Shown here: positions 31,443 to 32,739 of the stretch, piece by piece | Layout: every line of letters starts with the position of its first letter | Numbering within the stretch: the stretch's first letter is position 1 | Source: an uncultured Bdellovibrionales bacterium | GTDB lineage: Bacteria; Bdellovibrionota; Bdellovibrionia; Bdellovibrionales; UBA1609 | DNA: 64,000 nucleotides | Assembly (NCBI GenBank): GCA_903833275.1 | Contig: CAILEP010000022.1 | Span: forward strand, 124,001-188,000 | Direction: 5' to 3' | The notes under the pieces: generated by a model | Seen by the model: the letters and a program-made list of their open reading frames with translations, nothing else | Database searches by the model: none | Told to the model about the DNA's origin: nothing | Made by a program: the position numbers and the translations under genes

Positions 31443-31647
31443 CCGACGCATCCTTGCGTCTGCATTAATGACGTTGGGCCCACAGCTGGCGGTTAGCCTC
31501 GCCTCTCACCTGGCTAAAAAAATGTGCCTATCTGCCGCCATCTCGATCTGAAATGCGGCGCAGCAAGCGACAAAAGTTGTCACTCTCTTTTGAAGATTTT
31601 TTGATGCCTATCAGGAGCAGACCGCCGCCTCTCAAAAAAATGACGAA

Positions 31648-31677
31648 TTGACTTAGCCTACCGTTTGCGAGAATAAT
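31648..31677 (+). promoter_or_regulatory. Sigma-70-type promoter of tRNA-Leu
   Basis: TTGACT at 31648-31653 and AATAAT at 31672-31677 are separated by 18 bases, close to the -35/-10 consensus. The expected transcription start is near 31684, just before the tRNA at 31688. Confidence 0.65.
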
Positions 31678-31687
31678 TTCCGACATT

Positions 31688-31774
31688 GCGCGAGTGGCGA
31701 AACTGGTAGACGCACTGCTTTGAGGTGGCAGCGCCCGAAAGGGCATGAAGGTTCAAGTCCTTTCTCGCGCACCA
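31688..31774 (+). tRNA. tRNA-Leu (anticodon GAG)
   Basis: The 87-base sequence folds as a class II tRNA. The acceptor stem is GCGCGAG with CTCGCGC, followed by a discriminator A and an encoded CCA end. The D-loop has TGGTAGACGC. The anticodon stem CTGCT/GGCAG holds the loop TTGAGGT, giving anticodon GAG for Leu codons CUU/CUC. A long variable arm (GCCC..GGGC) is as expected for leucine tRNA, and the T-loop is TTCAAGT. Its 3' end is copied downstream. Confidence 0.95.
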
Positions 31775-31786
31775 AATCTATTTTCA

Positions 31787-31829
31787 AAAAAAGACAAATG
31801 ACCCGAAGTGGTTATTTGTCTTTTTTTTT
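31787..31829 (+). terminator. Intrinsic terminator after tRNA-Leu
   Basis: AAGACAAATGACC pairs with GGTTATTTGTCTT (one G-U) around loop CGAAGT and is followed by nine T. A-run on the left makes it work in the opposite direction too. Confidence 0.9.
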
Positions 31830-31871
31830 GCAATTTGTGGGCGCGAGAAAGGGCTTGAAAAGAGTGAGCGA

Positions 31872-31989
31872 CCCACGATGAAAACGACCAAAGGGAGTTT
31901 TTAGCGTGGGGCAGAAAAACAGGATGTTTTTCTGAGCGAACGGGCCGGCCATGCAGAGAGCGCGCAGGAAGCGCGCGACCGTAATGGCC
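31872..31989 (+). ncRNA. GGA-hairpin RNA module 1 (CsrB-like candidate)
   Basis: Three hairpins in a row. H1 (31872-31910): CCCACG..CGTGGG plus an inner AAAAC/GTTTT stem around an 11-base loop GACCAAAGGGA. H2 (31912-31934): CAGAAAAAC/GTTTTTCTG with loop AGGAT, reading CAGGATG at 31920. H3 (31947-31989): GGCCAT..ATGGCC enclosing GCGCGC/GCGCGC with loop AGGAA, reading CAGGAAG at 31965. CAGGA(U/A/C)G in hairpin loops is the repeated element of E. coli CsrB, which binds CsrA. A terminator at 32022 follows. Expression is not shown by sequence. Confidence 0.5.
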
Positions 31990-32021
31990 AAGTCCTTTCT
32001 CGCGCACCAAATCTATTTTCA

Positions 32022-32064
32022 AAAAAAGACAAATGACCCGAAGTGGTTATTTGTCTTTTTTTTT
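32022..32064 (+). terminator. Second copy of the tRNA-Leu terminator
   Basis: Same hairpin as at 31787, with A-run left and T9 right, so it can stop transcription from both the tRNA side and the GreA-like gene side. Confidence 0.9.
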
Positions 32065-32105
32065 GCAATTTGTGGGCGCGAGAAAGGGCTTGAAAAGAGC
32101 TTGCG

Positions 32106-32222
32106 GCCGTGTCGGATCCGACCGCAGGGAGGATTCGATACGGCAAGGCAGACAGGATGTCTGACTTAGCAAGCGAGCCGGCCATGCAGAGAGCGCGCAG
32201 GACGTGCGCGACCGTAGTGGCC
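32106..32222 (+). ncRNA. GGA-hairpin RNA module 2 (CsrB-like candidate)
   Basis: The same three hairpins as module 1 with changed stems. H1 (32106-32144): GCCGT..ACGGC and GGATCC/GGATTC around loop GACCGCAGGGA, the loop nearly the same as in module 1. H2 (32149-32163): CAGAC/GTCTG, loop AGGAT, reading CAGGATG at 32153. H3 (32180-32222): GGCCAT..GTGGCC enclosing GCGCGC/GTGCGC with loop AGGAC, reading CAGGACG at 32198. Stems differ yet stay paired while loops stay the same, which supports a selected RNA structure. No terminator follows this copy. Confidence 0.5.
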
Positions 32223-32256
32223 AAGTCCTTAATTGCGACCCTGGCTGATTTCATAA

Positions 32257-32739
32257 TTAAATGACGCTTAAAATTTCACAGAGGCGCACACGCTGGCCGA
32301 TTTCGAATTCGGCTACATCCCCGACTTCTAAACCCATGATGGCTTCGCCCATAGCTGAGCTGGGGGTCACAATTTGGGTCGTTTCATGAGCAATTTCGCA
32401 GCTGATGCCGCCGCCATTGGGCATAACTAAAAATCGGCCGCGCTTGCCATCGACTTTGAGTTCGACCAGAGCGGTGAGCGCGATGGCCTCGTGGGCCGAG
32501 AAGTTTTTGAAATTCAAAGTGTGAAAAAGCTGAATCACCACTTCGATTTCGTTTACCCGTTTGGCCTGGGCGCCGGCCAAGTACGAAGCCTCGAGGGCCC
32601 GAGTGTCATATTGATTTTCGGGCTTGCTCTCTTCGTTGGTGGCGGCATCGTAAGTGGCGATAGCGGCGGTTTTCAAAAGTTGAATTTCGCTTTCGAGAAA
32701 TTTTAAAAAAGCGGCGAGCCATTGTTTTTTGTCGGTCAT
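32257..32739 (-). CDS. GreA/GreB-family transcription factor
   Basis: An N-terminal coiled-coil domain has acidic residues at the tip in EESKPENQYDTRALEASYLAGAQAKR-like order (compare GreA DLKENAEY), and the C-terminal FKBP-like domain holds SSAMGEAIMGLEVGDVAEF, the GreA/B signature SP.G.ALLG...GD. Such factors enter the RNA polymerase channel and rescue backtracked complexes. It is shorter in some loops and may be a GreA paralogue. ATG 32739 directly follows the yajQ stop; the longer frame runs into yajQ. Confidence 0.75.
   Translation of the reverse strand: MTDKKQWLAAFLKFLESEIQLLKTAAIATYDAATNEESKPENQYDTRALEASYLAGAQAKRVNEIEVVIQLFHTLNFKNFSAHEAIALTALVELKVDGKRGRFLVMPNGGGISCEIAHETTQIVTPSSAMGEAIMGLEVGDVAEFEIGQRVRLCEILSVI

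Follow-up and report, generated by a model that had tools for sequence, protein, structure and literature searches.

A tRNA- and tmRNA-linked structured repeat, probably of the TLR kind, in Bdellovibrionota

The two tandem units behind the tRNA-Leu(GAG) gene of an uncultured Bdellovibrionales bacterium are probably copies of a non-coding, RNA-structured repeat of the tRNA-linked-repeat (TLR) kind that is found where tRNA and tmRNA genes end and that spreads from one such gene to others in the same genome. The units lie in a stretch of 64,000 nucleotides (contig CAILEP010000022.1, positions 124,001 to 188,000), hereafter called the window. The repeat, referred to below as the element, represents a new and much larger TLR-like family in Bdellovibrionota, an assignment that is well supported; its architecture is ordinary beside that of the E. 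coli TLRs, and its inverted arm is the informative part.

The TLRs of E. coli have been known since 1978. They have been studied in one lineage, and a paper of 2021 still gives no known function for them; a large family that diversified independently, with strong covariation and with many tRNAs and a tmRNA as hosts, provides the comparative data that the question of TLR function lacked. The family shows conservation of the fold, of the C-NN-GA-N-G loops and of the tie between the arms and the tRNA end, whereas the GGA motif appears not to be conserved. Meanwhile, it poses the puzzle of how a short RNA-like repeat gains an inverted copy of the end of each new tRNA.

The locus behind tRNA-Leu(GAG)

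The tRNA-Leu(GAG) gene is the sole tRNA gene in the window. Two direct-repeat units follow its 3' end with a spacing of 233-235 bp (Table 1), which bears out a preliminary description of this DNA as a tRNA followed by tandem units carrying the tRNA end; the direct repeats are 120 nt at 31754/31989 (97% identity, spacing 235) and 86 nt at 31919/32152 (85% identity, spacing 233). The make-up then proposed for each unit, i.e. a hairpin/terminator, an inverted tRNA-end copy, three hairpins and a direct tRNA-end copy, was also found, except that the direct copy of unit 2 is degenerate and has no terminator after it. A strict terminator scan gave no call for the A/T-rich hairpin at 31786-31828. A consensus scan of 31560-32300 revealed no promoter-like site besides that of the tRNA gene, and because this only site lies upstream of the tRNA, RNA from the units would most likely arise by read-through of the tRNA terminator.

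Table 1. Features of the tRNA-Leu(GAG) locus, with positions in the window
Feature	Position	Strand	Evidence
Promoter-like site of tRNA-Leu(GAG), TTGACT-18-AATAAT	31648-31677	+	consensus match only
tRNA-Leu(GAG), the host gene and source of the 3'-end copies	31688-31774	+	Rfam tRNA, 49.5 bits
Spacer hairpin followed by a T run, terminator-like	31786-31828	+	A/T-rich 18-nt inverted repeat, 94%
Unit 1 arm5, tRNA 3' end in reverse complement (from the acceptor 3' strand to T54)	31841-31859	+	19 nt, 95% complementary
Unit 1 hairpin P3	31872-31910	+	predicted fold, covariation
Unit 1 hairpin P4, loop CAGGATG at 31920	31912-31934	+	predicted fold, loop motif, covariation
Unit 1 hairpin P5, loop CAGGAAG at 31965	31947-31989	+	predicted fold, loop motif
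Unit 1 arm3, 21 nt repeating the tRNA 3' end exactly in direct orientation (CAAGTCCTTTCTCGCGCACCA), forms P1 with arm5	31989-32009	+	repeat and predicted fold
Spacer hairpin/terminator, copy 2	32021-32063	+	inverted and direct repeat
Unit 2 arm5, inverted tRNA-end copy	32076-32094	+	19 nt, 95%
Unit 2 helix P2 (32099-32104 with 32169-32174), encloses P3 and P4	32099-32174	+	predicted fold
Unit 2 hairpin P3	32106-32144	+	predicted fold, covariation
Unit 2 hairpin P4, loop CAGGATG at 32153	32146-32166	+	predicted fold, loop motif
Unit 2 hairpin P5, loop CAGGACG at 32198	32180-32222	+	predicted fold, loop motif
Unit 2 arm3, degenerate direct tRNA-end copy (CAAGTCCTTAATTGCGA)	32222-32238	+	only 9 nt intact

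The predicted folds of both units are much stronger than those of shuffled sequences (z of -8.7 for unit 1 and -6.9 for unit 2). All four hairpin loops read in the preliminary description are present, and the motif CAGGA(U/A/C)G to which they conform has four occurrences over 397 nt, where shuffled sequences give 0.13 and none of 2000 reached four; plain GGA is not enriched over the units (eight seen, 8.8 expected). Within the array, the terminator and the arms are near-identical, and the hairpin stems differ between the units by compensated changes. This pattern is the one to be expected of a folded RNA together with concerted evolution of the parts derived from the tRNA end.

Distribution, fold and tRNA linkage of the element

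The units had been attributed to a partial duplication peculiar to one tRNA locus, which is not so: purely local duplication is ruled out, since the same body stands behind many tRNAs. A covariance model (R1) was built from 13 elements, and the search of other genomes with it, as the preliminary description had proposed, gave matches in 28 genomes of the class, which has 144, and in 78 of the 369 Bdellovibrionota genomes, with up to 16 copies per genome (16 in one genome of 1.5 Mb). The presence of the element is patchy, and the R1 search gave no match in the other five genomes of the window genus. Named matches belong to Bdellovibrionales, Oligoflexia or unclassified MAGs; off-phylum pattern matches, which would have placed the element outside Bdellovibrionota, were rejected as chance. 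The window genome groups with Bdellovibrionota, and its order also contains genome G072, which we take to be that of B. bacteriovorus HD100, as a c-di-GMP riboswitch stands at the merRNA coordinates of PMC3627812. The single element copy of HD100 (2,712,810-2,712,971, + strand; tRNA-Gln(UUG)) is not among the eight attack-phase sRNAs of that paper. No Rfam family matches the element at gathering or relaxed thresholds, and no described TLR family outside Enterobacteria was found in the open-access literature.

The window genome itself carries a second copy behind tRNA-Leu(UAG) (G000:C7, about 130,365-130,574; BLAST match about 130,429-130,565; L009, 1866-2075), the inverted arm of which fits tRNA-Leu(UAG). 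In relatives, copies were found by BLAST behind Leu, Gln, Ser and Asn tRNAs. Genomes with at least four copies hold 57 elements; for 33 of these the nearest relative lies at another locus of the same genome, and in 20 cases that locus is a different isoacceptor, which makes spread within genomes likely.

Covariation supports the fold: in 35 of 49 pairs both partners have changed, against 0 of 500 shuffles. For 60 elements outside the model build, 88.3% of cells are paired and 47 of 49 pairs have changed on both sides, with 33-38% in slid controls, where it should be noted that these elements were aligned to R1 and that model-fitted alignments lean towards the structure of the model. In the helices P2-P5, G-U pairs outnumber A-C (144 vs 27 and 85 vs 6 in two sets), which indicates that it is RNA of the tRNA-sense strand that folds. 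In the tRNA-derived stem P1 the two are equal (79 vs 84; 54 vs 54), a symmetry to be expected where copying, rather than selection for base pairing in the RNA, determines the stem. The conserved loop of both P4 and P5 is C-NN-GA-N-G.

Among 147 copies examined closely, 104 have a same-strand tRNA or tmRNA gene within 420 nt upstream (91 within 160 nt; median distance 60 nt), and these hosts comprise 16 tRNA isotypes and one tmRNA, while all 500-nt flanks together hold two opposite-strand tRNAs. ARAGORN found no upstream tRNA for 37 of the 147 copies, some of which are remnants or displaced; several of the unlinked copies are contig-edge cases, are associated with degenerate tRNAs, or are displaced copies still with a tRNA-end copy. 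The direct run of arm3 has a family median of 18 nt. The uninterrupted complement of arm5 averages 12.0 nt to its own tRNA vs 5.8 nt to other isotypes (0 of 2000 permutations), and its end is nearly always the complement of T54. Genome G038 has lost arm3, yet its arm5 is complementary over 16-18 nt to several different tRNAs, and at locus L034 arm5 matches the tRNA end plus CCAAA and arm3 does not; therefore, arm5 tracks the tRNA and not arm3.

Elements behind tRNA-Leu(CAG) in two genomes of the genus of G314 (L191 and L193) have the same body and the same distal flank. The long spacer hairpin between tRNA and arm5 is different in each of L191, L192 and L193, and its halves always change together. 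The tmRNA-linked element (L118, 1073-1661, genome G187) lies directly downstream of the tmRNA gene (tag ADSYESYALAA), whose T-arm region recurs in reverse complement as the arm GTGGGAATCGAA of the element. Two genomes of genus g13, G017 and G032 (L084, L085, L086, L087, L056, L108), have a degenerate tRNA and a degenerate element followed by an apparently intact tRNA, as if units of tRNA plus element had been duplicated and had then decayed. Deletion derivatives occur in Bdellovibrio, with only P4 left in G080 and only P5 in G084 (L148, L159), and their arm still fits tRNA-Gln.

Mobility and rival explanations

No dedicated protein was found for the element. Among 14 element-bearing genomes, a Y1 transposase is absent from five (G006, which has 16 copies, G017, G055, G348 and G359) and a reverse transcriptase from seven (G000, G038, G055, G141, G302, G348 and G359); a dedicated reverse transcriptase or Y1 transposase is ruled out as a requirement by the element genomes without either. 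No phage or plasmid copies were matched, the recall of the viral pattern scan being only about 6%. Likewise, no clean pair of an empty and a filled site sharing fixed flanks turned up, transposition was not observed, and insertion boundaries are uncertain because the tRNA loci concerned are hot spots for other islands. In G107 (L160, 1-1700), a large serine recombinase ORF, named from its sequence and not by family search, ends beside tRNA-Gln, and the island-end sequence of this genome also follows arm3 in G070 (L145); arm3 may act as a second attachment site for islands. The flank common to G070 and G107/G094 was rejected as the original 'empty' flank of tRNA-Gln, as it is an island end with a large serine recombinase.

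For a TLR-kind repeat spreading among tRNA 3' ends, the following route can be proposed. The element would have no promoter of its own and would be transcribed by read-through of the tRNA terminator, like RrB of E. coli, and its RNA would fold so that arm5 pairs with arm3 or, alternatively, with the tRNA 3' end. More speculatively, a new copy might be anchored on the universal T-loop sequence TTCRA and take its 3' end directly from the new tRNA. Its arm5 might be made anew on that tRNA as template, by fold-back copying across the spacer hairpin; this would explain why arm5 follows whichever tRNA lies upstream. As reverse transcriptase and Y1 transposase are each absent from several element genomes, we favour copying mediated by the host. 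A further-reaching form of this proposal is put forward tentatively, as possible though doubtful: an enzyme-less mobile element, with a folded RNA as its only content, would colonise tRNA and tmRNA 3' ends across the phylum and rewrite its 5' arm as the reverse complement of each new host tRNA; on this view, remnants of one and the same superfamily would survive in E. coli as its TLRs.

Several observations might be accounted for without any mobility or function of the element, if it arose passively as replication slipped and islands integrated at the tRNA gene: tRNA 3' ends are integration hot spots, the recombinase-bearing island end at tRNA-Gln recurs after arm3, and the tandem units are near-identical in their arm and terminator parts. 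However, slippage can not yield one covarying RNA body at 16 isotypes and a tmRNA in 78 genomes, and such an origin is highly improbable. That the element instead regulates its own tRNA, with arm5 pairing to the 3' end of the precursor and competing with folding or end processing as an antisense or conformational regulator, appears unlikely in view of the strong hairpin/terminator that separates tRNA and arm5 in many loci, the mismatched patch often found at the CCA/acceptor region, and the wild-type tRNA that still has to be made; what speaks for it is the permutation result on the match of arm5 to its own tRNA, together with the arms in G038 and L034 that fit the tRNA where arm3 is lost or unlike.

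The preliminary description had interpreted the units as a CsrA sponge. Read-through from tRNA transcription would then display GGA hairpins that sequester CsrA and tie growth rate to the Csr system, a role that we regard as somewhat unlikely. The four window loops fit the CsrA-type motif CAGGA(U/A/C)G, and the sequence around two of them, ACAGGAUGU, is similar to the SELEX optimum. CAGGAUG is also the commonest P4 loop in the 60-element set (24/60), and csrA, whose presence had been named as a check, was found in the window genome (G000:C6:285937). However, csrA is near-universal (135 genomes out of the 144 in the class have it, whether they carry the element or not), so its presence is uninformative as a test, and the distribution of the element is patchy by comparison. 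Moreover, what is conserved in the loops is C-NN-GA-N-G and not GGA: of the 147 copies, 94 have GGA in the P4 loop and 35 have CACGANG there, 80 have GGA in the P5 loop, 55 have it in both loops and 28 in neither. In the window units, plain GGA is not enriched. GGA is frequent in the family but appears not to be conserved, and a CsrA function of the whole family would have to do without conservation of the motif.

The joining of the two ideas in the CsrA proposal, for which no described example had been known, does have a precedent. Stenum et al. (PMC8144298) report that RrA, RrB and RrF, which are E. coli TLRs behind 5S rRNA, arise by read-through of a terminator and that GGA motifs in their loops bind CsrA in vitro; a coupling of growth rate to the Csr system has been proposed for them. 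The same paper gives a Kd of about 100 nM for RrB and CsrA in vitro, with binding lost on GGA to UUU, whereas the 19 tRNA-linked E. coli TLRs have low CsrA scores, < 0.01 in a CsrB-type predictor (PMC8144298). Many copies, both window units included, look like good candidate CsrA sites, and the sponge becomes one possibility that can be tested; for the TLR-kind repeat preferred here, CsrA binding via GGA loops, if any, would be secondary and confined to some of the copies.

Comparison with known systems

Like MITE/REP-type repeats, the element is short, non-coding and multi-copy, with inverted arms at its bounds. Its arms, however, follow the host tRNA and are not constant termini, its covariation is of the RNA type and extends over several helices, and several high-copy element genomes lack the Y1 transposase expected of the IS200/IS605 type. 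With CsrB/CsrC-type RNAs it shares GGA in hairpin loops (four loops in the window), but these RNAs have about 18 sites against two loops per unit, GGA appears not to be conserved in the element family, and the element is tRNA-linked and mobile-looking; the Rfam CsrB-family models do not match it. RrA, RrB and RrF of E. coli have the same order of gene end, terminator, hairpins, gene-end copy and terminator (RrB), and the RrB loops CCGGAGG and CAGGACG fit the C-NN-GA-N-G loop of the element. They differ in being linked to 5S rRNA and in that no inverted arm was seen in them, and R1 matched only P3-P4 of RrB, weakly, at 9.8 bits. Binding of both CsrA and Hfq in vitro is reported for these three RNAs in PMC8144298.

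The closest likeness is to the E. coli TLRs, including RtT (RF00391, tyrT-tyrV), and the preliminary description was right in seeing an rtT-type tRNA-linked repeat with GGA hairpins. The E. coli repeats lie directly behind the tRNA, their last 18-19 or more bp copy the tRNA 3' end, and they form tandem units with hairpins between inverted and direct tRNA-end segments. The window units likewise lie directly downstream of a tRNA gene and number two, within the 1-5 units per locus of TLRs; as for the 18-19 bp of identity to the gene 3' end, unit 1 has 21 nt, and unit 2 has only 9 nt intact. The inverted segment is on the 5' side in E. coli too (GGGGAAGGAT at tyrV, GGGAGGAT at argV), and the units of tyrT/tyrV and argV/argZ consist of this segment (10 and 8 nt, respectively), hairpins and a direct tRNA-end copy. 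In the tRNA TLRs of E. coli K-12 at L173, L223 and L227, the 5' side carries a short piece of the tRNA end in inverted orientation, a feature of which no mention was found in the passages of the TLR literature consulted. The inverted arm of 8-10 nt in E. coli contrasts with up to 19-23 nt or more in the Bdellovibrionota element, which has P2 in addition, longer P3, P4 and P5, and many more host tRNAs. The RF00391 covariance model has no match in the window or its relatives, and R1 scores only 4-9.4 bits on RtT units. As compared here at the sequence level, the element has the defining layout of a TLR and appears to work like one, and common descent with the E. coli TLRs is plausible.
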